Shown: one piece after another, positions 23,217 through 63,833 of the stretch
Numbering within the stretch: position 1 is the stretch's first letter
Layout: the number at the start of each line of letters is the position of its first letter
NCBI RefSeq assembly: GCF_019649055.1
Contig: NW_026570233.1
Location: 806,001-870,000, forward strand
Length of the DNA stretch: 64,000 nucleotides
From: Paramacrobiotus metropolitanus
Lineage: Eukaryota > Tardigrada > Eutardigrada > Parachela > Macrobiotidae
Direction: 5' to 3'
Made by a program: the position numbers and the translations under genes
The notes under the pieces: generated by a model
What the model was told of the DNA's origin: nothing
The model's database searches: none
The model's input: the letters and a program-made list of their open reading frames with translations, nothing else

Positions 23217-26200
23217 ATGCCTCCACCGTTGCCGCGTCCGCGTTATCTGCGAGATTACAGCGTCCAGTCCCGTGACGTCCCTATCTACGGGCGCTACATC
23301 ATCCTTCCAGCGCGTCTCCACGCCGACGAAGACGCCCGCCGCCTGGCGCAGGCCTTCGTCGAGCGCCTCATTGATCGCGACGGCGTGCGCGATGATCCCC
23401 TGGAGCCACATTCCGCGTGTGCGCCCTTCTCCTGTTTGGAGCTGTACGATCTGCACGGGGGGATGCGCGACGTGATCTGGTGCATCATGCTCAGTTTCGC
23501 CAGTGCCAACTACGCTGCGACCGTCGTTCGCAGTGGCGGAGATGGGCAGTGCGCTTCGACGCACCAGGAGCAGGCCGCCAAGAACCCGCGACGCAAACGG
23601 CAGTTTATCCATGCCTCGTCGAGTCCGGACAGCGCGCGTGCCTTTCTCGAGGCGCTGCAGACCGTGCGACGGGAGCTGGAGGTGCCCGCATGGAAGAATG
23701 TGAAGGTGGCAGCGCTCCTCGAACCCGGGAATCTCTGCATCAACAACCAGGTGAGAAACAGTCAACCGTGAATATTAGGCAGAACACTAACAGTTAATAA
23801 AATGATGATTATAATATGTGTTATCGAGTAATTCATGATTAAACCTTTAGCTATTTAATAGCTTTTTATTTTTATCGCATTGTTTTGGATTTGTTGCTGT
23901 TTTGTTTCGGGGCTCGGGCACTGGAGCGTCGTCATAAAAATGGTTAAATCGTACTGTAGTAATTTATCAGTTTTGCATTTTTCGTTTTGATTGTGGGTTT
24001 TAATTCGAAACTTTCGTGTGAATTTTTTCGTCGTTGCTTTAAAAGATCTGCTTTGATCGTGATTTTTGGAGATTGGTTTTTCGCGCTTTGGAATTTTCCT
24101 GAATGTTTCTATCCAGTTTTCTCTCTGAAAATTTTCAGTGCACTTTATATTAGTTTTGCTCTGTCGACTGTCCTTATATTTGATTAATCCAGAATTTTCT
24201 TATTTATCATTCAGGAAAATTTGCAGTAGATAAACAGCAGTATAACAAAATCCTGATTAGAAAAAAGAAGTTGTTTGTTGATCCGGTCTATCCAACGCAT
24301 TTCTCTAGAAATTGACAACATTAATATTTAAAAGGCACTAGGCAATACTCATCAGAATAACAAAAAATGCAAACGCAGGTACTTCGGTGTTGAAATTCGA
24401 ACATTAAAAAAATAAACAAACATAGTAGTTATTTGCGCATTTTCTTTGATCGTATTTTCAGATTTTACGAACTTTTCCTGGCTCCATCCCCGAGCGCAGC
24501 TTATCCTGCCGCTCCCTGCTGACCACGGCCTCCTGCCGCTTCAAGGACGCTCTGGACAGCTCGCCTCTCACCACCCCACCCTCACCCCCCGACGACATCG
24601 AGGAGCTGATCAACCATTCCCGCTCGGCCTCCCGCTGCCCCTACTACGCCCTCAACGCCCACACCCCCGACGCCGACATCGTCTTCACCACGTACGCCGC
24701 CCTGACGGAGATCGTGGGGGAGATGCGGTTGCCCGGGGAGACTCTGCCGTTGGGACCGCACACGGTCCTGCTGTGCGATGATGCCTTCGCGATGGACAAG
24801 GCGCTGTCGACGGCGTACAAATGGACGCTGTTGCCGCGCGGTCTACGGCTGGTGGGGGATTATGTGCGGGAGCGGGAGGCGTTGCGCTATGCGGCGGAGG
24901 CGACGCCGGGGATCAAGCAGTACGAACGGGCGCCGGAGCAGATGCAGCACTTTGCCCGGTTCATTGAGGCGGTACGTAGCGCTGATTTACTGCCCCCGAT
25001 CAAGGTCGTTGTAAATGTTTAACTAGCTACCTGCGTTTGGATTATTGGAGTTTTGCGTAATACTTTTTTTGCGCTTTTGATGCATTTAGAAAGTTTCTGC
25101 GGATTTTTTGTTTTCTAGATTTATTGCCTGTCGCGTTAAAAATAAGGCTGTGAGCTTTTAATCGGGATTTAGGACTTATCACTTTTAGAAAGTTATGAAC
25201 TGCGGTTTTAAAGTAGAATTATGAGTGTTTTTGATCCTCATTCTAGTGATTACTCAGTAGTATTTTTGATCCTCCTCATTTTCTTAGTGTTTTTGATTCT
25301 CATTTTGTTGTTGATCCTCATGAAATTTTTAAATGCTTATAAATCAGTTGACTACCGTTTTAAAAAGTCAAGCCGTATTTTGGTGTCACTAGTCAGTAGT
25401 AGCTACTCGAATTTTTATAGCCGGTACAGTTCGTTTTTTCATTTTTAATTTACATTTTCGGTTTCCGTCGAGCCAGCTGCACTTCTGCATTTAATCGTAA
25501 ATACTCTACGAGTAGTTTTAGATTACCTAGCTATGAGTGTGGAATCGATTTTTATTGACGAAACTTTTTGCAAATGGTTATTTGTTTTAGTTGTTTGCGC
25601 TTTATCCGTGCTATTGCTCACGAAAAAATAATTAACATGTCTTCGTTGCAGTGCATTGAGTTGGCCTGCAACACGGAGCCCATCGTCGCGCAGTTCGCCT
25701 ACCTGTCCACCTTCATCCGTCGTTGTGGTCTGCGCCAGTTCACCCCCGGCACCCTGCACTCCCTGATCATGTCCACCGCCTACGACATGCTATTCGGTAA
25801 CCTCCTGCGTCCGTTCATTATCCGTGCCGCCCTTCCTTCCCTAGCCCAACTGCTGCGCTTCGTCACCCTCCTGGACAGCCACGACATCTGGCGCTTCTTC
25901 TTGAACCCCAACCAGAAGCTCAATCCCTTCCGCGTCCTCTTCCGCCCTGATACCCAACGGTATCCGCTGTGCCGCTTCCCGGGCATTCAGCAGGGGGCGG
26001 GCGGGCATCGTCTGCGCAGCGTGGTGGATCCCGCCTTCCAGAATGGGCGGAATCAGTGGAAGGCGAAGAAGGAGGTCGCCCGGACGAGTGATCGGGAGTT
26101 GAGCCGGAAGATGGATTTGGTGGGGTTTTCGTGGGTGCCGGCGGCGGAGACACTGCACCGGTGGAAGGTCGGGCGCATGGTGGTGTACGGGACGATGACG

Positions 26201-42150: not shown

Positions 42151-45100
42151 ATGATCACGCTACGAATCCTTCCGTTTTTATTACTGGGAATATTTAAGGT
42201 AAGAATTCCTTTACAGAATCGTCGCGGAAAAAAATGTTTCGATATATGTCGCTTTTTTATATATGTATTATGAAGCTTTATATATTTTAGTACCTAAACC
42301 AGCTTTGTGCAAGCATTTAATATTTCCAATTTTCGATTTTTATTAACTGTACGTATGCGATGACTTTATCTTTTTGCTAATTACTGAAGGGACTGATTTT
42401 ACTTTTTGAATGAACTGATTGAGTATATTGTGTCTTCCGTGAAATTATGTATTTCCGCGATGCCGGTATAGGAAGATGTTCTCTACATATGTGTCTGTCA
42501 GAAATTGGCTGGCCTATCGTTAATCTTCACCACGGTGCCAGTTTAGAAGCGAATATGCGGAAAGATTTTTTATTTCTCTTCTCTCTTCTTCTCGCGCCAT
42601 GTGTATTACCTGTTCGATGTCTAGCGTATACACGCTGTCGTGCCGGAGATGCAGTGGGGTTAAAAAGAAGAGAAATTGCCGATGATCAGCGGCGATTCAG
42701 TGCGAGCGCGCAAGTTCATATGACGCCCCAGGGGCCCAGCATATTTTCCGTCCATGCGCATCGCAGAAAACCTAGGCTGCTGTTTTGTGTGCTGTATGTT
42801 TGCTGGACGATTCTGCGCGAAGAGAGATAGGTAGCTAGTTGGGCAGGTCGTCAGAGTTTAGCCAGCTCCGCGATCGGCCATCAACGTTGGCCGTATTATA
42901 TGGTGCGTTGATATGGCGCTAAATGATCCTGCTACCATGATTGATCATGGTCAGTATGCACGACACGGAAGTCCACGGTTTATTACTTACCTAACTACAG
43001 TCTGTAGCTTCGATAATTGCCAGCGTTCGAACCACTAAAAAATTTTAGAAAATTAGGGAAAATTTTTTAAAACATTCGCTTAATTGATGAGGATGTGTAT
43101 TGCTATATTTTCTGAAAGCCCTTGTTCTAAACTTCGGAAGTCAAACGGTGGCGGCACGAATAGCCGATCGCCCGAAAATTCTTTTTTTAAAAAATCCGAA
43201 GAAATTTATAGAAATTGGTTTAGTAGTAAAAATGTTTATTTTAATTTTTTCTAGCACTCTTGTTCTAAACTCTAAAATTCAAAAAGTGGCGTTGGGAGGG
43301 TTTCAGTTTTGCGGCCACACGGAAGTCGACGGTTTATTACCAAAACACTTTCGATCAACAACATCCTACTCCCGAAAAGAATTTTCAAAAAATCAGTAGG
43401 AAAATCGCACGATAAATATTTTCATTTTTTTTCCGGCAGCTCGTGTTCTATACTCTAGAAGTCAAAAGATGCCGGCGCTGCGAATAAACCCATTTTTTGT
43501 TGGGTAGTGCAGAAATTCTACATCTCAACTGTTTTGCCGGAGTAATAAATTTAAATCAGTTTTGTCAAACATCTGGCTGGACTTGATTAGGGCTTTATAA
43601 TAAAAATAGATGTTTTTCTGTGTCATGGTGAGCAAAACGCCCAGCACTCCTAAGTGGCCAGCGCCCAGTGTGGGAGCTCATCCGACAAACTGCTGCGCCA
43701 ATACCGCACGACAGGATTGACTGGGTCTAACAGGCCTCAGCCATTTTTCATTGACTGTGCCTGCTGATTTAAAAGGTAATTACGGTCCCAAGCCAATGGA
43801 GTGTCAGGGCCGGTTTCGCGTATATATATCCGCTCACTGGAGAAAATGATATTTAATGTGGCCATTCTGTCACAGACCAGTTCTTAAAATGTTGTCAGAT
43901 GATATTTGACGAGATACGGGCGCCTCCAATGGTCGCGGCCAGCGTGGTTGTAATCAGTATTCTTCTGCTTTTGGGAAAATCAAGAGTGAGTTTTGCAAGA
44001 CGTGGTTTTGAAGAGAAGAAGGTTGACTACTTAACCGAACTGGTTTACTGTGCAGTTTTACATCGGGCCGGCTGCTTTGTCAGATGTGCTGCAGCGTGCA
44101 CATTTTCAATTGGAGGCCAGGTATTGGGCGCCAAAACAAACTGCGACGGGGGGATATTGAATATTTTTGTGCGCACCGTAAACTGGAATAACAGAAATGT
44201 CGTAATATAATTAGTGGTGTTTACACTTGCTGATTTGAACCAAACCGATCATTATCGATTGTGTGACCGGCGCGGTAATCAGCCAGACGGTCAACACTTT
44301 GTATTTGCATATAAGGAAAACTACGAGGAAGTAGCGAAATTTATTTTTGGGGACGAGCAAACTTTAATCGGAATTATGCAGTTAGTGAATTTCTCTATAA
44401 AAAATAGGTAATCAGCGCTGTGCTTTAGATAATAATTTTCTAGCTCGGAAGCGAAATGTGTGTTGCTTAAAATACATATAATACCAACAAGGAAGTTAAT
44501 TATACATTATGTATTATTGGCATTTACCAAAGATTCTGCAGCCGCCGTCGTCACGCACTGAATGTGGGGCAATAGACGCCCATATCATTTTGCAGACAAT
44601 TAATCTCCTTTAACCAGTTAAAGCTTCATTCACATAATAATCTCACGCCACAGCCGATATTAATAGCCCGCGCTTATCCATTGTCCGTATGTATGTACTA
44701 ACATCAACACACATGTACCGGCTACTTGAAACCGTACGCGATTTTAACAAGCCTTATCAGGCCCCCTCGGAATATTTATGCATAAGCCACTTGGTCGTGG
44801 GGAATTGGCTATAAGCGGTCCGCCACTCGGCGCACCGGGCCATTGTCAGAGGGGTAATGGAATGCGCCGGCGTCAGCGGAAATGCTAATTTCCCTTACCA
44901 TGTTATCGTTTATCGATACTCGCGCATGCCGCGTTCTTCCTGTGTACCGCGCCGTGTGTTTACATATTGCGTCGCGGCGCTGATCAGCTGTAGTCTGTAG
45001 TGCCAGGAAGCGCGTCAACCTGTTCTACACGAATCGATTCGTTGTAATCCCGATAAGCTTATTAGACAATAAAACGAATCAATACAGTATTATGAGTTGT

Positions 45101-48100
45101 TTGTTTTTCAAAAATTATAAGACAAATTATTACAACAAATTAGCAGTCTTTACGATACTAATCGCCTGCAAATAAAGTCTTTTTAGCCGTTTGTAAAGTA
45201 AAAAATTACAGATTTACAAAATTAAAAATTTACCAAGCCAATAAAACTGAAGGAATTTTTTTGTTAAAAAAAATTTGGAAAAATCGGTTTGTAGTTTTTT
45301 ATTAACAGGGAAATTTGATTCGTGTTTATTTTTGCGCAAAAAGCACACACACGCTCACTGATGTTTGACCACTTCGTTCCGGCACATGTGACATATCAAA
45401 AAGTCCGCGGCCGTATATGAATATCAGTGTCAAGTGGTTATGGTGCAGTGAGCTAACAAAACGGGCGAATTTGTTGGTTTAGATGCATATATTTACGCCG
45501 CGGCCACTTGATCGCGTTAATCTGAGCGTGCGCCGTCATCATCGTCATCGTACCGCTACGTTCGATCTGAAGGCCTAGGTCAACGCCGGTTCGCCAACAG
45601 CCACACCGAGAGAATAATGTCCGTAAAAGTTTTTCTATCGCTCACCAATTTTGACGTTTATTATAACCTCATTGCGGCTGAAGGTGCGACGTGAAGAGGC
45701 TATAACAAGCCGGCACTTCGCAGTATTATTCAAAATGGCTTTACACTTCGCAGGTCACTAAAATGATTTTATTATGACATAATTATTCCCTTTAATTAAC
45801 CGAAAAAAAACGAATTTTTTGCCTTATAAATATTATTTAAAGATAATTTAGATAAATTTAAATTACATATTAAAATAACGCTGATATTTTTTAGTCCGAT
45901 TAAATTTGGGCGTTTTTAATTATTGCCTGGTAACACGTGATATTTATCCGCAGTTCTTTTGCGAGGCATAATTTATTTGCTCATTATTAATTTGAAATGT
46001 GTCCAAGTCGATTATTGGGTAATTGCTGGTCATAAAACCAAAAACCTACCTGATTTGCGAGTTTCATCATACATCGCAAATGTGCGTGTTTGATGCGGAA
46101 TGCGCAGCAACAGGTAGCCCGCACTTTACCGGTAACATCTGCCAGCTATAAAGCGCTGAATATCCTTGAGCAGCAACTATCTAATTCTTTGACGATCGCT
46201 GGTCCCGAAGCCATTCTGGGCAGTGAAGCGCCTGTTGTCGGCAATTGAGATATTACGATTACCGCGTATATATGTTTGTTAACAAGATTCCTCGCAATTT
46301 TATGCATGACACTCGCGGGCTGGCGTCTTTTGTGTGCATATCGTAAACACTAAACACTGGCCGGATTACGAGCAATAGCGCCGGTAATCACACCGGCAAT
46401 TGTTAAAGAAATTCATAATTCCGCTACTCAAATAAATGTGCGTATAAACACATCAAAATCACTTCCGCTATAAACGCTTCAATGTGATTCTTAAAGACCG
46501 AGTTATAAACTTTGCATCGAAACATTATTAATAAAATTATATTTACTACGTATTGTTTTTTTTTTGGAATAATATTATATTTGTGATCAAAAATAATTTT
46601 AAAAAATTTAACTTGCTTTTTTAACTGGCTTTAATAATTAAAATTAGATTATTTTGTTTACTGAATTTTATCAGTCTTGCATATTTTTACCGCCGTCTAC
46701 AGACGAGATTTATAAGGTAAAATCTCATGATTGGGTTAACGAAACGTGCACCGGCTGGCGGAGGCGGGTGCACATGAGTATCTATCGCCATTCAGCGGCG
46801 CTGTGCATGTGTTTTGTATCCGTAACACAGTGTGGTCAGATCGGTAAGCAAAGCGTGAAATGCAGCCACTACAACAACAACCACAGCACATTGTTGTGCC
46901 ATTCGACCCCGGCCTGACCTTACGTAACCAATCTGTAATACCGTGCATAATCAGCAGCGCCGCTCAGCTGAATCATCGCGGTCAAGATGCAACACATATG
47001 GCGTAGGCAACGATTCACCCAGTTTTTTTCGCCGTCGCTTTAGTATATATTCTCTGTCGTTCTATAAGTGTTTTGTGCTCCTTATGAATCGGCGTTTTAC
47101 GGTCTAAAATTATAATGTAAAACCGTAAAATTTTCAATCGCTATTAACCGAAAAATCATGGCGTAATGCGAACTCTGTTAAAAACAATAAGAAATAATTT
47201 ATCTCTTCTGGAGAAAATATTTAGATTAATGGGATTTATTTTGTACCACGAGTTTGCTGTGTATTTGCAAAACAAAACTTGTTTTTCTACCCGCAGTAAA
47301 GTGATTTTCTTTTCTTCTGATGCGCGGCAGCTAAATTGACAAATAAATTGCTTATCCGTTAATCGCTACACAATACGCTTCCAATCCGGTCGCTTTCCGT
47401 CAAAACTGACCACCGCAAACGCTGCAGCCATTCCGGTCGACAGCGATGAGATTAGGTTCTCAGCAGTGAAAATTTATGAAAAACGTCTAATTCATGAGAT
47501 TTCTGTCAAACTACCGGCTTTGGTATGCCCGTCAGCGTTCGAAGCGGGCCGTTCACTATTTTTCCGTTTTCAAGTTAAACGACCCAACTACCAATCACTC
47601 TACAACACAATGATGTTGTGCTTAATATAGTACCACTATGATATTATTTTTGTGGCGTTCAAGTTCGTAATCTGCATGTGAAAAGCGCGGAACGAGAGCG
47701 AACAATAACATTTGCCGGGCAGTGTATTAACTGCCGGACATTAGTCGCTGGCTGCACGCGTTGGTCACCAATGTCACGCCCCGTTACGACAGACGGTTGT
47801 TTATGTGGGTCAAGTTCGTGCTTTTAATGAGACCGTCGCTCCTCAATAGTCTAGGTCGTTTTGTCAATAGAAACACTTCGGTAAATAGTGTGTTTTGCCA
47901 AAGATATTTTATTTGTTTTAATTATGAAGTTTTTCGAATATGTAAGCAAAACTGCAGCGTTCCGAACAAAAAAATAAAACTATTGCCATGTGGTTTGTGG
48001 CGGTGTCTATAAAATAAGTCACATATATTTAGCCAACAACAGGAAGAGCGTTAAAACGTTTTTTTCTCAAAACGGTGAAACATCTTTTGACTTCATTAAT

Positions 48101-51100
48101 TTTATATTTTATTTTTCTTTGTTACAGCAACGATCTTCTTGACCTTTGACCGAATTAGGCGGGCTGAAAAAAAATGATAAAAAATTCGACTAATTTAAGG
48201 TTGTAAAAAATCAATAATAGCGCGGTATACAGGCATAAACGATGACAGCGACAATTTTGCGTGAAATGCAACATTATGACCATATTGGTATTAGTTGGGC
48301 AAACAATGGCATCAGCATAATTCGGGCAATATTGAATATTGATTCAGGCGCACCACTGCATAACACCGGTGTGTTGAACAAAGCGTTTTCGCACGTACTT
48401 TGTGACTTGGCGCTGGACACCGGCGCAGCCTCTTGAGCCGCTGCATTAGACAATTTTGTGACAATTGTCGGCACTTGACAGTAACGAAGAGTGCCGTGTG
48501 CACAGTGTCGCGGAATGTTGATATCTTAGAGAAAAAAACTAACAGCCTGCGTTTCTTAAACTTTCTTTCGTTACAGGTACCCGGCATATCGGCATCCGGA
48601 GTGCTACATGTGGAAGTGCTCAGCTATACCAGTCCAGGTATGTTGTCAAGCGATTGCTCGGCAAATAGTCCGCAGCGCCAAAAGCAACACACTGTCCAAT
48701 GGGTGTACAGCGCGGAAACCGGCGCACTGTAATTATCCATGCATGCATAGTATGACGCATAATGTAGAGTTTAAGAGTATAATTGTTGGCGTGGGGAGAA
48801 ATGGTTCGCAGAATCGACTGTGGACTGTGGTTGGGCTGAGTTGGTGAAGAACGCGGGTTCGACATGTTGACTAAGTAGTCATGAGTGGTTCGCCGTCAGA
48901 ATGCTGGTCAAAAGTCAGCAAAAACCAGAACCTGACATCCTGTTTTATTCAATAGTTCGATGATGAAATTCCTTGTCAATAGCATTTTGGCAGCCTTAGG
49001 GAATTAAAGTGTAGTAAGGACTGCTTTGAATAAGCAGTCATAACTTATGACTTATATTTAGTTATAGATATGAGTGCTACATATTTCGTGCATATTCTGG
49101 AAAATCGCGATGACTCTTAAAACACTTGATTCATAAAACGTTAATAAATTTTTGACTAGGTAGAATGATTAAGTACCTAAAAAAGCTCTTTAATAATTTT
49201 GCAACTGACCGAGACTAGCGTTTACCCCTGCAAAGGAAACAGCAAAAAAATTTTAAGCTTTCCCTAGTTCGAGATACGATAATATTATTACCATGCCACT
49301 TTATTATTCAGATTTTAATTTGACTGGCTTTATAATTAATTAATTTCGCATTCGCCTGCTTTACAATTTTGGCCAGTGACAATGCCGACACACTGGGAAG
49401 CAAGAATAGTTAGTTATTCGATGCCGGTTAATTAACTACTGTTGTCATAGAAATCAAATGAAGCGATTTTATTAGGCTGCTATGGCAACCGCATTGTTAT
49501 TGTAGCCGGGTGTCATTTAACACAGTGACAACCATCATAAAACCTGCCATTTAATTGACACATCTAAACGACGCTAATGACCTTGGCACTACTGTGTGTG
49601 TTGATACAGGTGCATCGAGGATACGACCGTCGTCCCTCTGCTGTGATGCCGGCGACAGCGCCGAGCCGGCCTGCTCGGCACCTTGTGATATTTTTGTATC
49701 GATATGTATTAGCAAAGAGAACCTCAAATCCCGTTTTCCCAAAGGCCTGACGGATGCGGACAGCATTGACTGCGGCGATGGGAAGCTGATCGATGCGCGG
49801 CTGCCCTCGCCCTTCGGGTATCCCGACGGTGCCCGGGTGCCGGCTAATCTGCACTTTAAGAGCGCCTTCGACGGCCGGTGGGCGGGATATCAGAATATTC
49901 GTCTGCAGTTGCGACGCGGCGATAAGAACGGGAATACAGAGAGTGTCGACCGGTTTAGTGTCAACTATTTCAAGACCGATGCGTTCGATGAAGGCAGCTA
50001 TACCGGGAAGGTCTTCACGGCGTCGGGGATCAGACCGAATTCTACATCCAAGTAAGAATTGTTCTGCATAAAAAAATTTGGGAAAAACAGATAAAAATTA
50101 ATTCGAAAGGTTCAACTTTAATCAAGGTCGCGTAGTTACGAAAAACTACTGAATATGAGACATTAGTACTGCCAAAAACCATGCGTGACTGGCGTTGTAG
50201 TCGATAAAGATCGCACTTATGTTTATTATTTCGCATGCCATAAATTATGTTAATGCGGAAGATATCATCGGTACTGGTAAATTGTCGCTTGCCGTAACCA
50301 GTGTAAATTCCTTCTCGTCCGCCAAAGTATTACGCTCAAGTAATCAGTTGTTTTTGAACTTTCATGTTTTCCAAACTATCGCATGACTTTTTAATTATCT
50401 TATGCGTTGATCTTGTATGCAATTTAAATACACAGTAAGCTGCAACTGAGTGCAGATAGCAAGTAAACACAGCACTTTGGATGTGGTGTATCTATGTCTT
50501 ATGCTAATCAGTTTGGCTCGTATTTCGGGTTTTGTAGATCACATACATTAACATATTACACTTAGTTGCACTTCAACTTCAGATTTCTTCGTATTTAAAT
50601 TGTATGCAAACTTCTTTGCACTTTGGATGTACGGCTGTCATAAAACTAATGCCCTTTTGTGAACACCATGATTCCAATTAGCCTAATTGTAAATGACCAA
50701 TCAGCGACGCTGTAAGCATTGTGTTCCTGCATCTCAACAGGCTGGAAGTGCGCGTGGCCGCTGTATGCGACTACACGTCGTCGCGTAGTGTGGCACCCTA
50801 CTGCGAGAACGCACCATGCAGCCCGACAGATGACTGCACTGGCCATTACACCTGTCATCCGGCCACCGGCAAAAAAGGTACGTCGCGATGTCGATGCCTC
50901 GTGAAATATGTGCCAAAGGGTCAAATCCACGTTATAGACAGCATTATAGACAGTCATCTTTTGAAGCATACTTACTTGATATTACGTGAGAATTCCGGCA
51001 TGCTTAATCACTCGGCATGTGCCGATGTATCTTTTGCAGTGTGCTTAAACGGATGGACCGGAACCAAGTGTAATGAGCGCTTAGCACTGCTGCCCGCCTG

Positions 51101-54100
51101 CGCCAAAGGTATGGTAATAAATCTGAACGATAAGGATGTTTGGATAATTAACGTCACGGGTCTATTAAAGATTACGTTACATTTGCTAACCTTTATGACG
51201 GAGTGTTAAGATTTCGCTACGTTTCCAACTTTTATGATGAGGAGTTGATTAGTGAGAATTATGGCGTTAAGTGCGTGAAAGAAATGGTTCGTTGGGTGTG
51301 ATACAGTGATTGGTTTTTGCAGATCATCAGTGTGCCAATGGTGCACCGTGTATCGTCAACGGAACCTCACCCAGTGATTACTGTACGTGTCATACGACGC
51401 ATTACGAATCCGTCATTGTCATGTCGCTGTTGTTGACTTGTTATTTGTTGACCTTTGTTAGCCTAACAAAAGATCGCTGTTATTAATTAATTGCTAATAA
51501 CTGCACAACTGCTCTGTTCTAATAATTTGTCATTGCGGATCTCGACTGTGATTGGTCGATTTCGTTCCTGTTTCTCTATTCATTTTATACATGCTTTTGT
51601 GCGTAAAAGTAATTTTATATTGACGCAATATTGTCTCTCTTAGTCGCGAAGGTATAATTTATTCCGTTTTGCAGACTGCTGCTGCTCCGTCGGCTGGCAC
51701 GGTCCCCACTGCGATAAACCAGCCGGCATCGATTTCGCCCGTCTGCGCGTCAAAACCACCAGCCTCGATGACGAATTCAACAGCCTATCGGATGCCGTTG
51801 ACGATGAATTCCTCCCGGCCGATTTGGTCATCAGGCCGCAGATCCGCAAGGTCCGCCAAGCTCCGCCCAACCCCACCATTCGGGTGGGCGTGCAGGTTCC
51901 CGAGACCGCCGGCCGCGTCCTCCTGGTTCCGACCGTCAACGCCACCGCCCCGGGTTTCGTCGGGCACCGACCGCTGTTCAACATCAACGCCCAGACGGAT
52001 CCGCAAATCTTCAGCTCCATGCAGCTGATCAACATGGTGTCGCCGGTGGACGGAGCGTTGGGCGTGCATAAAGTGGCCATTATGAACGCGCCCAAGAGCA
52101 TTCAGGACTTGGAGGCTGTCCTGCAGACGGCATGGTGGAATGCCAATTTTGGTAACAGTACGTTGACTAACTCCCGCACTAACACATTTATTATGATGTG
52201 AAAGGCCATGGATTGTGAGTTAAACATTTTTGGTTGCAGAAGCCCAAGGTCTGTCGCAGAGCGCGGTGACCGTGAAAATCCTGCAGTTCCGCGATTATGG
52301 CCTGTTTTCGGATCAGGGGTGAGTGAACGTCAGCTAAAATGGAACCGCAAAATGAGTAAAATTTTATGGTATTTGTATGGCGCCTCCAGTTTGCGAATCA
52401 GCTTGAAATTGATTGGCAGGAATTTTTACGCAAATTTGCCTAGTCTGCGTTGGCAAGCGAATGCTTAATGTACTCGTACTACAGGGTGAATGTCGTGTAA
52501 TGAAGCTGATTTTATTCGGCTTCGGCCAGCATACATAACAAATCGCCTGCGCAGGTTTACACTAATTAAAACCATCAAATTTTTAAACATTAAAAAACAT
52601 CCAAAATCGTTAGTGACTCGCATGATCTTAGGATGTGCGTTAAGTGTACCCAAAACAGCCGCTGCATTTCCACGGACTACCGCTAAACTTAAACGTTGTC
52701 TTAAAAAGGCGGTAGATCGTGGTTCCCCGGTAACTTCACGGATCTTTCTGCCGACGAAACGGATAAGCTCGGCGATGTCGTGTAATTGTAGTGCAGTGTA
52801 GTACATCGGCTATCCGTGCTACGCACCTGGAATTCGATGAAATATGAATAGTTTGCATGTTTGACATTGCACGTAATCTAACGATTTTCTTTTTTTAACC
52901 GTCCAGTTGATGATAAATTTCTTGAATAAAATTTTTCCAGCGTGAAGAAATAGTTACTCTACTAATTTTTTCGTGTTGCAGAATCCCTGTGATCGAAGCA
53001 ACCTACGCCGTCGGTCTCAACCGCTCCATCGTGCCGGCCACCTTCGACACCTCCACGGTCCGCCTGCCCGACATCCAGGGATTGACCCGCGCCCTGCAGA
53101 CTCGTGATTTGCAGTTGTGCGATTGTGATGTGTACGAAGGACGCTATCTCCATTTAGTCGGGATTGTCAGCGTCGGCTCCAACGCCACCCAGTACCAGCA
53201 GGCCATGCAGGCGGTCTGGTTGAGTGTCGGGCCGGAACTGCGCTGTGGCAACTGCCAGGTCAGCGTCCGCTTCGCCCGGACCGTCATCACAGTGGGAACA
53301 GCCGGGTATGCTAACGAAATACAGTTCATATACGTATAAAAATAAACAAAATATAAGCAAAATATATTAATGATATAAAATGTATACATAATGTAAAAAT
53401 ACACACAAACATAACAGTATTATAATTATGTAAAGTAGTTATATGATATAAAAATATACCCAGTTTTGCTTTGATTTTTTTTATTCAGTGATTTTTTTAA
53501 AAGTTTTTTTCACTTTGAATTTTATAGTACGTATGATTATAAAGGTATCTGTTCGTACAGTTTTACAAGTTATTTTCTGTTTGCATTTGTATAGAAATAT
53601 TTGTATTAAAATCACTTTTTACCCGAAAAGTATTTGCATATTTGTATTAAAATCAATTTTTACCCGAAAAGTGTTGACCATAATATTATTTCTTTAGGGT
53701 GCGATTGACGACCATCCCATACGTTGTGCTGCTGAACAATAAAGTCTGGGCGACGCAGACCTTCGTGAATATGCAGCTGGATCCCAGTGCCGTCGAAACG
53801 GCGCTGGCGGCGGTCGGGCAACCGGTGCAAGTGTACCATGGAACGCAGTTGCCGGTTTACGCCGCACTGGCCTTCGTCAATTACCTCAACGCTAACATCC
53901 ACTTTCAAGATATCCCGGCGGTGCAGCGAAGTTTACAATCGTATCTGGACGCTCGCATGCGTAAGGCTATATGAACCGCTAAATGAACGACTCCACTGAG
54001 TGTAGAGAAATCAAATTTAAGCGTTGTCGTAGTGTAGCGGCTGTATGCCATATGTGATTCGGACCGTTAAAAATAACTTACAGCTCGCTTTACAAATTCA

Positions 54101-57100
54101 GATGTCTTATTAATTTTTTTATGATCTGAATTACTAGTACTCGTATTATAGCTATCTTACAAATCTTTAATTTTTCCATAGCCCGACCCCCGGTACTTGC
54201 AACGGTATGGAATCTGGAGCCGTTCTTGGATCCCACTGCGTAAGTAACGGCCAGTATAATATTAAGCGAAAACGCCGGTTTAGTAAAAACGAACGTACGG
54301 AGTATTTGAATTACGATAGGAACGTCATTACGCAATCGTCCTACTTCCTGTCCCTGCCCAACGGCGAGGTCATGGACCCGCGTCTCTTCTACGCTCCCCC
54401 CATCATCGACATCCTCTCCCGACAAAGCGAGGGCAACGTATCGACCTTCACCGGTGAGACATTGGGCATCCACCCAGTGTACCTGTACGGCGACATCAAC
54501 GCCAATCTCCTCCGCTCCGTGGCCGAGATCCTCAAGATGACGTACGCCGAGCAGAACACCGGCCAGGTCAACCCCGACGACGTCCAGGTGGCCGTGGTCA
54601 GTATGGACAATGGCTTGGTCCAGGCTTTGCCGCCGCAAAGCGGGATGACCCGGGTCACCGAGCTCCACGTGTCGGCCATGGTCGGCGGTGTCGACCCGGA
54701 CCGGAAGCCCAATCTGACGCCCTTCCACCAGATGTTGACGGCGCCGGATTCGCAGAATGTCCTGGATACACGGTTGACGGCATTCGATACCAAAGTGTGC
54801 CGGAACTGCCAGTTTAGGAAGCTGCGTACGTTGAATTTGTTGCAAGTGGACCCTACCACGGCGTCGGTGGCTGATGCGCAGGCTATTATGGACAAGCTCT
54901 TCTCGGCGTGGATTGCGGCCAATCCCGAGTCACCGTGGCTGCCGATGAATTTGATGCTGGCGGGGCGGGACGATTCGTTAGCCAATGAAAATGGGTAATT
55001 TATAAAACAATTAATTTTTAACAGTTTGGTTAACATACAGTATGTAAAATTAGTTACTTCTTACTTGTAAAGCTACGGTGACCTTTTTTTATTACAGAAC
55101 ACTGGTATCCCAACTTTTATACTCGGTGGGCTACCCGCTGCCAAACTTCAACTGGTACATTCCCCGCGATCCATCTAACGACAATCTGGAGCGTCAACTT
55201 GCCCTCGTCAAAGCCGTGCCGTTTTTCGGTACACCTATTCTGCCGCAACGGATCTCCCTGAACAAACATATGGGAGCGGCTGATCAGACGCTTTTCGCTA
55301 CCGCCGCCATGCGGGCGTGGGCGGAAGACAAAGATGGTATGCAGCATTTTGCCTAAAGGTCATCTAAACGAAAAGCATGATTTCTTTTTTTTTGCAGATT
55401 TGAGACTGTGCCTGCAACCGGATGCCAACTGCTTCATCGCTGTGGCTGATGCCGAGAATCCAGCCGTTAACAATGTCAAGTACGTATATACGGCATGATC
55501 TGCAATAATAATTGATTTGTAAAGGCCAAATAAAGTATATATTAAGTCAGCAATTTCGTTGCCAACCTGTAACCCGAAATTTTCTTGTAGTGGCAATCCG
55601 CAGTATCTTTACAAATATTTCATCCTGGTAAACGATAAAGTCTACACGCCTACCAGCCCGCTCTCCCAATCCCAACTGATCAAACTCCGCAACACCATGG
55701 ACGCCACCAGCGGTACCGGAGCGGGCGGCGCCGTCGTGGTCATCGCTCCTCCGGCCGGCTCCAACATCACCATCGCCGTGACCCAGGCGCCCACGACGAC
55801 GACCACCACACCGGCCGTTCCTGCCACCCTCCCCGGCGGGGCAGCGGCACCTCCTCCCCTCAACTTCACCCACTCGCTCAACATGGTGGTGGGCACGGAG
55901 CGCCAGAAAGCCAAAGTCCTGGACGCCGTCAAGAACGTCTGGTCGATGGCACTCGGCCCCAACGTCACCAACGTCCGCCTAATCCCGGTGTCCGACCAAC
56001 CCGGTTTCCCGGATCCATACACCGCGGACGGCCTCCCCATCCGCACGGTCGTCTACTTGGTCCAATGGACGCCGGTCGGCACCTACAACATCCAGAATGC
56101 GGTGTCGCTCTTCAACCAGCTCCTCCCAGCGGCTAACATCCGGGAGATCCAGTTGGCCAACCCGGGCGGCAGCACTCCAGCACCCCCTTCGGCGTTTGTG
56201 GTGGACTTTGGTAAATCTCCGGTCAACCAGTCTGTGGCAGTGGTTCCTATTATCGTTCCACCGGCACCTGCGGCCCAGAATCAGTCGGTTGGACCCCAGG
56301 CTGTGGTCCCGATTCTTGGTCGTAGTCCCGGACCCAATTTGAACGCCACGACTACCACGGCGGCATCCGTCGGTCCCGCCGCCCCGATTCTAATCATCCC
56401 GGCGGCCTCCACCGCGACAACGGCGGCCCCGAACGTCATCAAGGGTCCCTTTGTCATCCATGATACCCTCGCCATCACCGCCGACACCAAACGCCAGCGG
56501 GACCGCATCCTGGAAGATCAGGTCAAACCCCAGTGGGTCCAGGCGCTCGGTCCGGGTGTCCCGCGGTTCAACCTGATCGTCAAAGGTGACCAGACCTACT
56601 CGACACCCTCCGCGCCAGAAGGCAAGACGCCCGCTGGCAACAGTATCCGGCAGATTAACTACGATATCGCTGGTGTGTCTGGTGCGCCGATAGATACCAC
56701 CGCCGCCTTGAACAAGTTCCATGAATTGGCGGGACAGGCCGGTCTCCATGACGTGTGGGCCATTCCGGATCAGTACGGCACCATGGTCTTGGCGTCGACC
56801 ATTCCCAAAGCCACAACGACCACGGTGGCGTCCGCTGTCGGCCCTGCGGTGGCAGTCATCATTCCCGCAGGACCGGTGGCAACAACTGCTAAGGTACCCA
56901 CAACGCGCCGCCCGGTGGTGGCCCACGGCGACTTCAGCTTGCCGGACGTGATTGCCATTACGGCGGACACACGGCGACAACGGGATCGCATCCTGGAAGA
57001 TGAAATCAAACCAGTCTGGCGTGAAACATTCGGTATGTTATCTGTGTATGTTACTTTTAGGGTGAATGTCCTAAAGTGAAAATAGCCGGTGAATGTTGTG

Positions 57101-60100
57101 TGAAAAAAGCCCTTTCGTTATTTTATTGCAACAGCTCCACGGGGCGGTTGATTTAACGACAAATTATATAATATTTTTTCTTGTAGGAAAAAACGTTTCC
57201 GATGGCTTTAAATTCACCGTGAAAGGCGATAGCACGTTCAATCCACCGAGCACTCCCGAAGGCAAGAGCATCCGCCAGATTGCCTATACCGTCGACGGAA
57301 TGTCCACCGTGGACCTCAACTTCAACGAAGCCGCAGACCAGTTCCACGTGCTGGCCCTCAACGCCGGCCTCCCGAGTCTGTGGGCGGTGCCGGATCCCTA
57401 CGGCAACTGGATCCTGGCCTCGTCCGTCCCCAAAAAGACCACCACGACGGCCGCCCCTACCACCACCACCGCCAACGCCACCGGACTGGCGGTCATTCCG
57501 ATCGTCATCCCCGGTTCCGGCGAATCACAGCCGACCCCGGCGCCAACCGAGGCACCGGTTCTGGTTCCGGAAGGCACCACCCGTCCCCCGCTGATCGTCC
57601 CGCCCGGACCCTTCACCATCCAGGACGTGGTGGGTGTGGTGGCCGAGACGAAGCACCAACGCGACCAGGCCTTTGCCACCGCCATCCAACCGGCGTGGCA
57701 AGCGGCGCTGGCACCCGTCACGCAGTTCAACCTTCAGCCCATCACGGACACCGCGTATACCACCGCGACCCAGGACAACGTCAACGGTGTCCGGTTGGTC
57801 GGTTACGTCGTCAACGGAGTGGCTGACGCTCCGTTTGACACCAACGCCGCGCTGGAACGCTTCCATGATTTGATCGGCGGGGCCAAACCCCCGGGAGTGT
57901 ACGCCATCCAGAATAAGTATGGGAACCTGGTGGAGGTGGCCAGCCTCCCCGCTCCCGCGGCGACCACGACTCCGGCTGGAATATTACCGGTGTTTATCGT
58001 CCCAGGACAGAACAATCAGACCGCGGTGGTAACCCCAAACGGCACCGTCATTCTCCCGGCCCAACCGGCCACCGCCATCCTTCCGTTTGAGCCCCGCGCG
58101 TCCGGAAGTGTGCTGCTAAAGAGTTACGCCGATACCGACGCGCCGGCGATCCAGGACACGCTGGACCAATTGTGGGCGGGTGCGCTCGGTGCTCCGGCCG
58201 AGAGTATCAAGATCGCTCAGTTGAACAGCAGCGGACCGACCGGCAACACCACCGCGGACGGCGCCCCGATTTACAGTTATAACTATCTCTTGTTGGCACT
58301 GCCCAATGTCACCGCCAACGTTTCGGACGCTTTCCCCGCATTCATCCAGATGCTGACCAACGGTGACCTTCAAGTGAACCCAGAGGCGCCGGCTAATATC
58401 ACGGAGCAGGTCAATAAAAACGACACGGCGATTCTCGGTGTGCTTCAGAGTCTACAGCCGGTAACTACCGTTGCGCCAAGAACCAGTACCGTCGCGCCGG
58501 GACCGGCCGTTGTCTCTGTATTAAGTTTCAAGGAAAGCCAAGACGTGATTATTCCGGATGCGAGCGCAGCACAGCCGTTTATGGATGGATTGAGACATTT
58601 GTGGGCACAGGCTGCCAGTAAGTGCTGTTTTGTTAATTCGGTGAAAAGACGGAGCTGCGACTATTTCACCGAATTATCTCATACCAAATAAATTGTCGAA
58701 TATGGTATACAATAGAAGTACTCGTATTTCTTTTAACTTATAATTTCTTACAAAATTTTGCATTTCTTTAGTTATTTTTTTTATACAGAATTACTATCTT
58801 TATAATTTTATGCCAAAATTCTGGCATGTACACATATTTCTGTAAATATTTTTATACGTTTATCTATACTCTAAGTATGTTTAAAAAATTCTTTAGGGAT
58901 TTAGAAATTCATTTTAATTTCAAATAATTCTCGTATTTCCGGCATTTTCGAGGTAAGCGTCAAGACATCGTGGCGAATACGATAACTTGACTTACATACA
59001 CCTTAATAACACCGTTTTCTGCAGACGTCGAAGATCCGGCAGTGCAAATTGGCTCACCTAAACTCACCAAATCCGATCCGCCCCGCGTCGCTCCCAACGG
59101 CGTGCCAATCCAGAACCTAGTATACGACGTCACCATCCAGAACAATAGCGACCCGGTGAATGTGATCCGCGCCCGCGAGAGGGCCTTGGCACCTAAGTCC
59201 TCCATCGCCGGCATGCTGTTCTTCGGTTCCACCCTGGCCGCCAACACCACCAACACCAGCACGGCGACCATCGTGCCCATCCCGGTACCGCTTCCAGCGG
59301 GAGCGACCACCGCCGCCCCGGTGGTGGCCACCACTTTAGCGCAACAAGCTTTGCCACCAGCGCCACCTGTGTACTACCACGACCTGGACGCCCACATCGC
59401 CAACATGGACGTGGTCAATCAATTGCAGAACGACCTCGGGGTTCTTTGGTCCCAGGCGTACGGTGTCCCACAAGGAAACGCCCAAGTGGTCGTCCAGGGA
59501 ATGCAGCCAGTGGGTGTCGACGAGAACCAGCGACCCATCAGCCGGGTCCAGTACACTGTGCAGGCACCAAAGAACGAGACGCCGGAGATCATCGATACCT
59601 TTACGAAACTGTTACTGAACTCGCCCATCAAGGACATCCTGGTGGTACCGAGTAACCCAGCGCCGCCGGCCGGAAAAACCTCCCATTCGGTGGAGATCGC
59701 CGTGTCCAACCCACAGGAACTCGACGCCGTGTACAGCGGGCTGCGCAACTCGTGGGCCTCGACGCTCGGCTTGGACCAACAGCCCGGGGCGGTCACCGTG
59801 GCCCTGACGGCGCTGTTGCCCGAGAACGTGGCCACCCAGAACGGCGTGCGCGTCCAGAATGTCACGTATGATCTCACCGTCCCGCCCAATGTCGCGGTGG
59901 GCCCCGAGCAGGAGCAGGCATTCATGCAGGCGCTCTTGGCGTCACCCGCCCGACCGTATCTCTTTGTCCGTGGTGAACCTGTTCCAGCAACCACGACCGC
60001 GCCCAATGGATCCGTGTTTGTAGTCCCGGTCCCGGTTCCTGTCCCAAGTGGACCGGCGCCGATTGCCCTCACTGACTCCATCATTCTCACGCCCACCTCC

Positions 60101-63100
60101 CGAGGCGCCACCGCCAACATTATGGTACCGGTGAAACAAGCCTGGGTGACCGCTTTGGGACCCAGTGCTTCCGACGTCCAGTTGACGATCAAATCGGACA
60201 GACCCTACAGCCAACCAACCACCGAAGAAGGCAAACCCATTCGTAATATCACCTACGACGTAACGGGAGTATCCAGTACCGGCCCGGTCGATGAGTACGC
60301 CGTGAAGGAGAAAGTTCGGCAGCTGTTGGCCACGAAACCGGTTGACAACGTCTTCCTGGTGCCGCCTCTGGGAGAGCGTCCGGCGACGGTTGCCACAGTG
60401 GCGCCGGAGACCACGACCAACGCCTCGGTGCCGATCGTGCCGGTGGTGCTGACCACCGCCCCCGCGGAGACCACACTTGCCCCGGGTGAGACCGCTACGA
60501 CCGCCAATGCCACCGGCCTTGCGGTGATCCCGGTCGTTGTCCCCGGTACCGGCGCGGAAGCCACCACCGCGGCACCGGTGACCGCCATGAAATTCCTCCA
60601 ACTGCGCCGCCCGGTGAAGGCCGGCGATGAAGCGGAGATCGCCGCTCTGATCGCCGCGGCGTGGGCGGAAGCCAACAACCGGTCGCCCAACGATATCCAG
60701 GTCAACGTCACTAATATCGCCCCCACCGTCGACGAGAAAGGTCAGCCGTCTTCCAACATTACATACTTACTGACATCGCCGACCGCGCTCGTGGTCCCGG
60801 AAGGCCCGGCGATGACGCGAGTGCTGGCGCAGAAGAACTGGCCGGTGTGTGATCAATGTTTCATGGTGCCGGAGCAGAAGGTCTTCATGACCATGCCTGA
60901 TCCGCATCACATCGACCCGACGGAGATCCGCAAGGGCCTGAACCAAGGGGTCACCCTGGCCAATCCGGACATCGATAGCACCAGGCTCCAAGTGGGCTTC
61001 CCGCAGTCCTCCCCACCCAAGGCCACGGAGCTGGTCAGTGAGGATCAAAAACGGCTGCTTCAGGTCAACTATTTCGTGGCGGCAATCAATAACCAGAACC
61101 AACTGATGGGAGCACTTCCGCCCAAGGTGGACCAGGTCCAGGCGCAGTTCCCGGACCGCACCGTGTACGCCGAAGGGGATGCGCGCCTGCGTGAACCGGT
61201 AATTCTCCACATCCAACGCCGCGATGACGCCTGGCAGCCGGAATACAACAATCCGGATCAGGTCCGCAAGAATATCCGCGAGGAACTGGAGCGCATCGGG
61301 GATAAGGCGGTGAAGAACGTGGCCGCCCAGCGGAATCTTCCCTGCAACGACTGCACCGGAAAGGTCCTGGATGTCATGGATCTGTACGGCCGCTTCGGGC
61401 GACACTTCCTGAAGGTCATCATCTACCCGGAGAACATCGGCAACGGCTACCCGGATGCCAGCGTGATTGCGGATATTAAGAAGGAAGCGGAGGGTCTGAT
61501 TAATAACTCCAAACAGCCCATCACGGTATCACCAGAATCGGACCGAGCTACGATGGCTACGGATCCGGAGAAGGTGTACTTCAGGGATTACCGCGGACGC
61601 CCGACGATCTATGACATACGCAATAAGGAGTCAGAATTCCTGCAACCTTGGCTCAACATCAACCCTGATTGTAAACCCGTCGGCAAGGTGGACTGCGGTC
61701 TGCATGCACTGATGCTGTCGGCGGAAACCCGGCAAGCCATTTCTGACGGGTACGTATGTATAATACACAGAATGTAGGCACGATGTAAGTGCTTTGTTTA
61801 ATGCATACTCGGCAAACCAGCGCCTCTCTGTTCGAACCCACTGCTGGCTAATTATGCTCATTGGATGTGTTCCTGTTGTACTCTGTTTGTTGTGTTTTTT
61901 TGCTAAAGTTGTGAATCGCGGACCGGGTGAGTCGGGGTGACCGATTTCAGTTTTTTAGTTCTACATTTTACATATATGTCAAATATGTGTCCATGAAAAA
62001 ATTTAATCAATTTTTTAATAGGTCCAAGGTGACACGCGTGTACTACATCGTGGAAGCCAAATCACCATACGTCCATTATCCCATACCCAGGGACATTAAC
62101 ACCCCGATCCCCAGCCAACGCCTCCGCTCCATTGTCATGCCGAATAGCAGCCATGCCGCCCACAACCTCGCCGAACGCCACGCCAAGCACGCTCGCTCCG
62201 TGATGACACGAGAAGCCCATCGCTTCCGTCGCCAAACTGGCGACGAGGCGCCTCCCACCGGCGGTGAGGCTGCCACGCCTGTACAAGGTGCCGCTGCCGC
62301 TGTTCCAGCCACCCCGGCGCCAGAAACCGTCGCGCAGCCGGTACAAGCCGCCCCACAGCCAATACAACCCGTTCCGCCGCAAGTGGACACACCCGCACAA
62401 CCGGTCGCAGCCGTCGTTCAACCAGTAGACGCCGTTGTGCAGCAACCAGCCGCCAACGTCGCGCCGGCGGACAACGCCAACGTCCAGCTGACCAATTCCA
62501 CCGCGGCCCAGACACCGATACAGTTGTACTGCTACATGAAAAACAACGGCACGTTCATCCCTTATTTCAGCGAGACCGTACTGGCCCTGAAGGATGATTC
62601 TCAGGGAGCCGGTAGCGCTACCAATGCCCCCGCCGTCCCGGCGGCAGCCGCAGCCCCGACCACAGCGGCACCGAATGCCGGCAGCGAGGACGACGCCTCG
62701 CTCCGAATCGGCGCACCCCAATGTACGGACTGCGTTTGCGGCATTCCGGCTTATAAGATTCTTCTCAAAGGTCACGTTCCTAAGGACCAAGTGGCCAATG
62801 TTACCAGGGACATCGGCCGAGCGTGGAGGGATACCCATGGTGCTATTCTGAAAGATGAAGCCGGCATTGATCTGGATAAATGGGTGCCGTATGTTGTCGA
62901 ACAGGAACCGAACTACGATTACCGCGATGCCAAATAGTAAGCAAGACGGAGTCAATTAACTCATCTCATATGTTAATTACATCAGCTGACAGTTTCTTTT
63001 GACAGTTGACACTTTCTCTTTGCAGCGGTAACTTAACATACTTAACGTACACGATCCTCGTGGCGAACGGAACAACGGATGATTTACTGATCCCCGATTT

Positions 63101-63833
63101 GACGCAAGAGCAACTGGCAGCTTACGGCGCCAACGCCACGTACCCGCCCTGCAACGACTGCCATCCGCTGATGGACTACGTAGCGTTTGTCGGTGGTCTG
63201 CCGACCGACAATGGCACCAACAGCGTTGTGGCTAAAGCGCTGGCCGACACCTGGAGCGATGGAAATCGGGAAGCGGTCAAGGTTGCTGGTAGCCCATTCA
63301 CTGTTGATCCAAACTACTCATTAACAGGAGGCTACAGCGCTAAGATTGGGTAAGAGCTGCGTTTGCATACAACAAGCGTACGGTGGAGAATTGCATTGTA
63401 AAAAAGGATTACATTAACGGTTTTAAGGCTTTTAAATTAACGGCTCGTGGTTGACAGAAACGCCAGCATTCCCGTACAGCGTCTGGATTACACGGTGGCC
63501 GTTCCGCCCAACACAACATGGAATATGCTGGACTGGACTGTCATCGGTCTGCCCGACTTGGAAACTTTCAACAGCCACTTCCGCTCGGACGTCAGTCCCA
63601 ATGCCACGGTGTATCCTTATGAAACGGTGACTGCTACCAGAGCGGCATCGACTGAACCTGAATACAGGCTGACAACAACGGTAAGGCAGAAGAGTATTTC
63701 GAAAGTCGAACGCAGGTCTAACCATGGAACGTATGTGTTTGCAGCCCAACTGGCTACCGGCAGCCATTATTGTTCCTCTCTTCGGTGCCATCCTTATGGT
63801 CTTGATAATTGTCTGCCTCATAACAAGGGCAAG
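42151..63833 (+). CDS. Giant DSL-domain (Delta/Jagged-like) membrane protein with many SEA-like modules, 3' end outside window
   Basis: The frame stays open through 21 exons: 42151-42198, 48577-48637, 49610-50051, 50741-50877, 51040-51108, 51323-51382, 51675-52151, 52240-52318, 52982-53305, 53698-53960, 54182-54239, 54320-54994, 55098-55336, 55398-55479, 55591-57032, 57187-58617, 59025-61749, 62022-62936, 63026-63349, 63458-63680 and 63745-63833 (about 3,390 residues). Signal peptide MITLRILPFLLLGIFK; Notch-ligand N-terminal domain (SGVLHVEVLSY, LCCDAG, CDIFVSICI; 22-183); DSL domain (about 190-250; PTDDCTGHYTC and CLNGWTGTKC); one EGF (about 250-285; GWHGPHCD). Then come more than a dozen modules of about 100-120 residues (helix ending in W, then PxxEGxPIRxIxYxV), Thr/Pro/Ala linkers and many Asn glycosylation sites, and a TM helix (AAIIVPLFGAILMVLIIVCL). 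Probably a cell-surface Notch ligand or antagonist. The DSL domain has an extra Cys, and the EGF array is missing. The exon 1 link across 6.4 kb is inferred. Confidence 0.82.
42964..43476. repeat. Degenerate dispersed direct repeats
   Basis: Three blocks recur in the same orientation. Block 1 (TTGTTCTAAACTCT then AAGTCAAA) starts near 43121, 43257 and 43440. Block 2 (CACGGAAGTCSACGGTTTATTAC with one difference) lies near 42964 and 43318. Block 3 (CCCGAAAA then T/A-rich AAAAAATC) lies near 43170 and 43371. Spacing is 140-200 bases. It looks like an old, diverged tandem array or nested element remains. Confidence 0.55.
43821..43828 (+). promoter_or_regulatory. TATA-like box before the small Cys-rich frame
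   Basis: TATATATA after a GC-rich GTTTCGCG, about 100 bases before the candidate start codon at 43929. Confidence 0.3.
43929..44210 (+). CDS. Possible small secreted Cys-rich peptide
   Basis: An open frame of 93 residues starts with a typical signal peptide (MVAASVVVISILLLLGKSRVSFA). A basic stretch (RRGFEEKK) that could be a processing site follows, then five cysteines (LVYC, GCFVRC, AAAC, TNC). A TATA-like box lies about 100 bases upstream. A GTAAAC donor-like site at 44178 and a further open frame at 44214-44411 raise the chance of a second exon, but the phases do not join cleanly. It would lie inside the presumed first intron of the DSL gene. No family is recognised, and transcription is unproven. 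Confidence 0.3.
   Translation: MVAASVVVISILLLLGKSRVSFARRGFEEKKVDYLTELVYCAVLHRAGCFVRCAAACTFSIGGQVLGAKTNCDGGILNIFVRTVNWNNRNVVI

Follow-up and report, generated by a model that had tools for sequence, protein, structure and literature searches.

The 64,000-nucleotide stretch of Paramacrobiotus metropolitanus DNA analysed here (NCBI RefSeq assembly GCF_019649055.1, contig NW_026570233.1, positions 806,001 to 870,000 of the forward strand; hereafter the window, numbered from its first letter) carries at 42151-63833, on its plus strand, a gene model whose predicted product joins a Notch-ligand-type head to a long stalk of modules other than EGF and to a transmembrane helix. The predicted product is a giant type I membrane protein. 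The interpretation that we favour, at about half confidence, is that one gene encodes it and that a divergent Notch-ligand head may have been repurposed on a partly mucin-like stalk, where it would serve in adhesion or display, bind a partner in trans, or act as a decoy.

An earlier reading made from the letters of the DNA (the sequence-only reading) had proposed one frame over 21 exons that ends in a transmembrane helix. Our independent rebuild recovered this model, with 3,387 residues free of stops and GT-AG introns in 20 of 20 cases. The coding signal is clear, with a guanine-plus-cytosine content of 61, 47 and 71% at codon positions 1, 2 and 3 of the exons compared to 38% in the introns. 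Exon 17 is the longest, open for about 908 codons, while the least certain piece is exon 1, which holds 16 codons, is followed by an intron of 6,378 bases and encodes a segment, MITLRILPFLLLGIFK, that resembles a signal peptide as judged by eye. By hydropathy, no 19-residue segment of the protein is more hydrophobic than the predicted transmembrane helix, IIVPLFGAILMVLIIVCLI (residues 3366-3384). Since a splice donor directly follows exon 21, the last in the window, the gene runs on past the window end and its cytoplasmic tail falls outside.

The DSL domain is what ties the head to Notch ligands. A DSL-like domain had been called by the sequence-only reading, and the profile search bears this out: Pfam DSL (PF01414) scored 37.6 bits when the head was scanned as a whole and 40.1 bits when residues 184-290 were scanned by themselves, both above its gathering score of 24.2. 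When nine shuffles with the cysteines held in place were scanned at E<=10, none of the nine matched DSL or EGF, and one matched an unrelated domain of unknown function (0.28). A Teneurin EGF model also came narrowly over its cut-off on residues 184-290 (24.9 vs 24.3), 15 bits under DSL. Searched against the sequences of the PDB, the piece covering DSL and EGF found Jagged-1 best (E 3e-9), followed by Jagged-2, Delta-like 1 and Serrate, with other EGF-type proteins and activin receptors among the weaker matches. All six conserved DSL cysteines are present (C193, C205, C210, C222, C231 and C240), and the structural residues DD..GHY.C and GW.G..C are retained as in Delta and Jagged. Since the match covers profile positions 10-45 of 46 and thus begins at position 10, the first part of the domain is divergent. 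Three of the five cysteine spacings differ from Jagged2 (C1-C2, 11 vs 8; C2-C3, 4 vs 3; C4-C5, 8 vs 7), and Cys216 is an extra cysteine relative to the same protein.

Of the residues listed for the Notch-contact face of the DSL domain, most have changed. A review assigns F199, R201, R203, D205 and F207 to the functional DSL face of Jagged1 (PMC3415683; papers are cited throughout from extracts of their text). Placed by residue spacing on the Jagged1 alignment row, these positions correspond to P209, S211, T213, D215 and T217, so that one of five (D215) is retained, and the position of Jagged1 F206 is taken by the extra cysteine C216. PMC2770060 names a YYG motif as a feature of DSL domains; the DSL stretch here, CDYTSSRSVAPYC, has none, and the Jagged2 row also lacks an exact YYG and reads ENYYSAT. 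Most likely the DSL-ligand fold is preserved in the head, but the usual receptor-binding chemistry is not. The proposed match to Delta and Jagged stands for the second part of the domain and its structural motifs, but not for the first part, three of the five spacings or most of the listed contact residues.

Upstream of the DSL domain, the isolated region matched MNNL and no other Pfam family, with scores of 15.8 and 17.7 bits against a cut-off of 22.5. The MNNL-like domain of the sequence-only reading thus survives as the sole family found there but fell short of the threshold. The match, at residues 23-71, crosses the join of exons 2 and 3 at residue 37. An MNNL-like pattern, CCD..C..CD.(F/Y)V..C, aligns with Jagged2, and the HMMER score of this stretch, 2.2 bits, is not significant. 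Downstream, the cysteine pattern gives the one EGF that had been claimed, with the six usual cysteines and one extra (C275), but Pfam EGF models stay under their cut-offs when this EGF is taken alone, and no EGF array was seen after the DSL domain in this protein. As a side observation, C216 in the DSL domain (exon 4, 50741-50877) and C275 in the EGF (51675-51712) may form an inter-domain disulphide. Canonical ligands are not known to have such a bond.

Between the EGF and the transmembrane helix lie about 3,080 residues, and their centre is a repeat array. In a jackknife test, each of the ten core modules (residues 1095-2582) was recovered by a model built without it, at 17.7 to 84.5 bits, and in 10 of 10 cases none of 200 shuffles reached the score. 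The values were 58.3, 84.5 and 74.1 bits for modules 7, 8 and 9; 34.8, 30.0 and 31.5 for modules 10, 11 and 12; and 25.3, 29.2, 66.8 and 17.7 for modules 13-16. A seed of seven modules found modules 11, 12 and 16 at 19.5, 17.3 and 5.9, where the best of 40 shuffled proteins reached 1.9.

On either side of this core, 11 further candidate modules were cut by eye and each compared with 200 shuffles of its own. Five of them exceeded every shuffle: module 1 (6.1 vs 5.7 for the best shuffle), module 5 (12.5 vs 4.7), module 17 (12.0 vs 4.6), module 20 (6.6 vs 4.3) and module 21 (14.4 vs 5.4). We rejected the idea that the whole stalk consists of proven modules, as modules 2, 3, 4, 6, 18 and 19 were matched by 5, 54, 6, 9, 72 and 2 of 200 shuffles. 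In a stricter scan of the whole protein over three rounds, in which the best of 30 shuffles scored 4.7, 4.1 and 4.5, modules 1 and 20 stayed below zero in all rounds, while module 5 (1.9, 4.5 and 1.5) and module 17 (2.7, 5.0 and 1.4) were at about shuffle level; module 21 reached 5.1 and 6.5 before it joined the model. We take the stretches on both sides of the core to be, probably, diverged copies of its modules, although the evidence there is weaker and mixed.

To obtain a fold, modules 7, 8, 10, 11 and 13-17 (n=9) were aligned and module 15 was folded by AlphaFold with the others as its alignment. The resulting model has a ferredoxin-like beta-alpha-beta-beta-alpha topology with a two-residue last strand (strand 2-9, helix 14-32, strands 36-53 and 59-71, helix 78-91, then the last strand), at a predicted local distance difference test (pLDDT) of 84 and a predicted template modelling score of 0.78. 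Ribosomal S6 and a portion of phenylalanyl-tRNA synthetase were among the ferredoxin-like proteins in the best 50 of 1,212 Foldseek matches at E<=10; the best E was 1.6e-3, with a query template modelling score of 0.54 (range 0.31-0.55), none fell below 0.001 and none was a SEA structure. Pfam SEA gave no match, at E up to 10, in eight of the 14 stalk exons (7, 9, 12 and 15-19) or in nine of nine modules, a negative to be read with the HMMER filters in mind, which discard most weak matches. We therefore dropped the label of SEA domain, for which neither a profile match nor a structure in those best 50 matches was found. What remains of the SEA-like array of the sequence-only reading is a module repeat with ferredoxin-like topology, and since no SEA match was obtained, "SEA-like" is a statement on topology and not on family. 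The GSVVV type of motif, which we take to be the SEA autoproteolysis signature, was not found in the protein, and the sole match to GS[VIL][VIL] was GSVL, close to where module 11 begins (residue 1792). Cleavage is not universal among SEA domains. The nine modules had no match to any Pfam family, the module profile gave four weak matches among PDB sequences (best E 0.003, a designed protein), and a scan of prokaryote genomes with exon 17 gave 24 pattern matches, none of which was confirmed. Since there is no Pfam family and no close match in the best 50 of 1,212 Foldseek rows, the stalk is a candidate for a new extracellular domain family.

The modules are set apart by linkers of mucin-like composition. 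Nine of the ten stretches before or between core modules are at least 27 residues long and contain 32-48% threonine, proline and serine together; the tenth has 4 residues. Overall, the core linkers are rich in threonine (16.4%), proline (17%), alanine and valine, with 4.8% serine, and they hold 2.79 N-glycosylation sequons per 100 residues compared to 1.35 in the core modules. A hydrophobic-proline-hydrophobic motif is enriched in the linkers: three patterns for it, picked after the sequence had been viewed, matched 7, 10 and 8 times vs about 1.2 expected, and none of 1000 shuffles reached any of these counts. We also observed that a linker unit recurs across 55591-61749, in which a threonine run, often with an N-glycosylation sequon, is followed by a hydrophobic-proline-hydrophobic strand, e.g. 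ATGLAVIPIVIPG and ATGLAVIPVVVPG. Cysteines of the stalk come mostly in close pairs, including six CxxC motifs (residues 546, 833, 2571, 2736, 3105 and 3218), and none was found between residues 990 and 2570. The sole match to R-X-[KR]-R in the 3,387 residues is RFRR (residues 2938-2941), a furin-type motif that sits between the array and the membrane. The stalk would be a glycosylated, partly flexible string of modules and linkers.

A further question is whether head and stalk belong to one gene. Two or more neighbouring genes might have been merged in the gene model, or the assembly might be chimeric; gene-fusion artifacts are common in helminth annotation according to PMC12964723 ("Widespread gene fusion artifacts in helminth genome annotations"), our model is predicted from genomic sequence, exon 1 has weak support and a 6.4-kb intron behind it, and the flanking modules are tied weakly to the core in the whole-protein scan. 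Against such a false join, exon 7 reads in one open frame from the last four EGF cysteines (C274, C275, C276 and C285) into the stalk, so that the junction of head and stalk itself needs no splice. The claim that a Notch-ligand-type head is fused to a long non-EGF stalk with a transmembrane helix is supported. Completion of the EGF by the exon 7 cysteines does depend on the splice between exons 6 and 7, exon 7 alone giving a weak EGF match (E 0.13). Further along, core module 9 bridges the join of exons 15 and 16 (74.1 bits) and core module 12 that of exons 16 and 17 (31.5 bits), neither score being reached by any of 200 shuffles. Candidates 5, 20 and 21, which were not used in model building, cross the joins 12/13, 18/19 and 19/20 at 12.5, 6.6 and 14.4, above all 200 of their own shuffles, and candidate 1, which crosses the joins of exons 7, 8 and 9, passes narrowly (6.1 vs 5.7 for the best of 200). 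We consider a false join improbable.

In the repurposed-head interpretation, a glycosylated stalk would hold the divergent MNNL-DSL-EGF head well away from the cell surface, in the position that the tip has in a membrane-tethered mucin. There it could bind a partner in trans for adhesion or soak up receptor as a decoy, and a cut at the furin-type site could part head and array from the membrane anchor. Notch activation requires ligand endocytosis that pulls on the receptor. Since most of the listed contact face is gone and a furin cut is possible, the protein is unlikely to supply the pulling force for canonical activation. Taken with the long stalk of modules and linkers, these features agree better with adhesion or decoy than with canonical activation. 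The sequence-only reading had left three options (ligand, decoy, and adhesive or mucin-like molecule), of which, because most of the listed contact residues are lost, we favour the canonical ligand least and an adhesive molecule or decoy most. PMC4810162 describes DSL ligands as adhesion molecules in their own right, so an adhesion role would be a modest functional step.

Several points weigh against this interpretation. The MNNL score lies under the gathering cut-off, the MNNL region alone found six PDB sequences at E<=10 with no ligand among them, and exon 3 folded by itself from a single sequence reached a pLDDT of 39.5, with no usable fold. Of the five flanking candidates that passed, module 21 alone stood clearly over the 30 shuffles of the whole-protein scan, the evidence for the furin-type site is a motif match, any O-glycosylation of the linkers is putative, and the cytoplasmic tail lies beyond the window. 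Moreover, DD..GHY and GW.G..C are still present, so some Notch binding is possible; in aggregation assays, binding to Notch survived the Serrate mutations F249A and R253A (PMC3415683), and the Notch-contact sites are likewise unconserved in sponge Deltas (PMC3482393), which means that contact residues do not strictly define DSL ligands.

These last points lead to the alternatives in which Notch remains the partner. A divergent DSL protein could bind Notch without activating it, in cis or as a shed decoy, and so compete with true ligands. This would agree with a DSL signature that is retained while most of the listed contact residues are lost and with a furin-type site that could free the ectodomain; human DLL3, also of the DSL family, showed no Notch binding at the concentrations tried in plate assays (PMC5538765). 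On the other hand, the same lost residues would weaken any binding to Notch, and a cis-inhibitor has no explained need of a 3,000-residue stalk; we give such a modulator a minority share of our belief. A canonical, lineage-specific ligand would have exchanged its EGF array for another spacer, with a head that binds and pulls Notch through co-evolved contacts. The order of MNNL-like, DSL and EGF domains and the transmembrane helix suit this, as do records of Delta proteins that have few EGF repeats or none (PMC2770060, PMC3482393), but four of the five listed contact residues are replaced, YYG is absent, the first part of the DSL domain is irregular, one EGF is present, and a furin-type site lies between array and membrane. 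We find a canonical ligand decidedly unlikely and stay with a head repurposed for adhesion, display or decoy.

A bolder proposal, which we think rather unlikely, is that in an animal lineage a Notch ligand became a very long display molecule, mucin-like and cut by furin, that would act as a releasable or long-reach Notch modulator. If it were true, it would show that a DSL head can do without both the EGF array and activation by force. DSL ligands are regarded as a conserved toolkit, and a protein in which the head is kept, the EGF array swapped for a long array of other modules and most of the listed contacts lost would be a natural experiment on which ligand parts serve signalling, adhesion or neither.

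Features of the gene model at 42151-63833 of the window; residues are numbered from the predicted start.
Feature	Position	Strand	Content
Exon 1	42151..42198	+	start codon and hydrophobic segment MITLRILPFLLLGIFK; donor AAG/gtaaga; open reading frame
Exon 2	48577..48637	+	first part of MNNL-like domain
Exon 3	49610..50051	+	MNNL (C2)-like domain, cysteines 47, 48, 58, 62, 69, 91
Exon 4	50741..50877	+	first part of DSL: C193, C205, C210, C216, C222
Exon 5	51040..51108	+	end of DSL (C231, GWTGTKC240) and first EGF cysteine C250
Exon 6	51323..51382	+	first half of EGF: C256, C262
Exon 7	51675..52151	+	fusion exon: second half of EGF (C274, C275, C276, C285) and stalk start
Exon 8	52240..52318	+	stalk, candidate module 1
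Exon 9	52982..53305	+	stalk, candidate modules 1 and 2; CxxC at residue 546
Exon 10	53698..53960	+	divergent stalk; candidate modules 2 and 3 do not exceed their shuffles
Exon 11	54182..54239	+	stalk
Exon 12	54320..54994	+	stalk, candidate modules 4 and 5; CxxC at residue 833
Exon 13	55098..55336	+	stalk, candidate modules 5 and 6
Exon 14	55398..55479	+	stalk, candidate module 6 (not above shuffles)
Exon 15	55591..57032	+	core modules 7, 8 and part of 9; Thr/Pro/Ala-rich linkers
Exon 16	57187..58617	+	core modules 9 (rest), 10, 11 and part of 12
Exon 17	59025..61749	+	core modules 12 (rest), 13-16; candidates 17, 18 and part of 19
Exon 18	62022..62936	+	end of candidate module 19, furin-type site, Ala/Pro/Gln-rich linker, start of candidate module 20
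RFRR motif	62221..62232	+	residues 2938-2941
Exon 19	63026..63349	+	candidate modules 20 and 21; CxxC at residue 3218
Exon 20	63458..63680	+	end of candidate module 21
Exon 21	63745..63833	+	transmembrane helix, then splice donor
Core repeat array, modules 7-16	55859..60883	+	residues 1095-2582, about 100 residues per module

Other candidate genes lie in the window. A G-protein-coupled receptor of the Rhodopsin family lies at 17-1837 on the plus strand in at least two pieces, with 7tm_1 scores of 104.9 bits for the first and 18.0 for the second (cut-off 30.5). What looks like a gene of the receptor guanylate-cyclase type occupies about 8813-14314 on the minus strand, where a kinase domain scored 61.4 bits at 9671-10093 and ANF_receptor 14.0 bits (cut-off 25.4) at 10860-11642. 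A DEAD_2 helicase piece at 24450-25019 on the plus strand (33.2 bits, cut-off 21) is perhaps part of a multi-exon gene, and three further open frames at 23.1-28.5 kb have no Pfam match at E<=0.1. By the same threshold, no Pfam match was obtained for a mucin-like open frame with long threonine and proline runs (4783-5349, plus strand) or for a 354-residue open frame at 18022-19083 (plus strand), which has several hydrophobic stretches by eye and may be a diverged receptor.

Compared to known DSL ligands (Delta and Serrate/Jagged), the protein has the same order of MNNL-like, DSL and EGF domains, a long ectodomain, a transmembrane helix, the six DSL cysteines, DD..GHY.C and GW.G..C. It differs in its single EGF, its stalk of non-EGF modules, the extra cysteines 216 and 275, the replacement of F199, R201, R203 and F207, and the absence of YYG. 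DLL3 has a cis-inhibitory role and carries EGF repeats. It is a DSL-family protein that failed to bind Notch in plate assays (PMC5538765); no homology to the stalk is claimed.

The sequence-only reading had set the range of canonical ligands at two to sixteen EGF repeats, which is too narrow, since 0-75 are reported in Delta and 12-18 in Jagged (PMC2770060). We likewise discarded the idea that few EGF repeats are unprecedented, given a Delta with 0 EGF (PMC2770060) and the sponge AmqDelta4, which has no EGF series (PMC3482393). Nematostella has genes of DSL domains only (PMC2770060), and a Capsaspora receptor kinase combines two DSL domains with EGF repeats (PMC4810162). In these proteins, as in ours, the DSL domain occurs in a layout other than that of the standard ligand; they differ in that no such repeat array is described for them in the extracts. 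The literature titles among the matches listed included none on a DSL protein that carries SEA or mucin repeats or this module array, and none on a tardigrade Notch ligand; the tardigrade papers PMC5531438 and PMC6065069 do not mention Notch, and the papers that join DSL with SEA or mucin terms (PMC7649794, PMC5446262) do so, in the extracts, around the Notch ligand OSM-11 and in a phylogeny figure. Since unusual DSL architectures are already on record, the architecture here is not new in kind, and what is left of the claim that it has no precedent is the array itself, which does not appear among the titles listed.

For the stalk, comparison can be made with MUC16 (CA125), whose 19 repeats each consist of a SEA domain and a linker rich in proline, serine and threonine (PMC10829539). 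Both proteins have tandem small alpha/beta modules, linkers rich in proline and threonine, and a transmembrane segment at the end, while the modules here have no SEA match and the linkers are rich in threonine, proline, alanine and valine with 4.8% serine. To our knowledge, MUC16 has no DSL head. By analogy of layout, MUC16 would be the nearest working analogue of the stalk.

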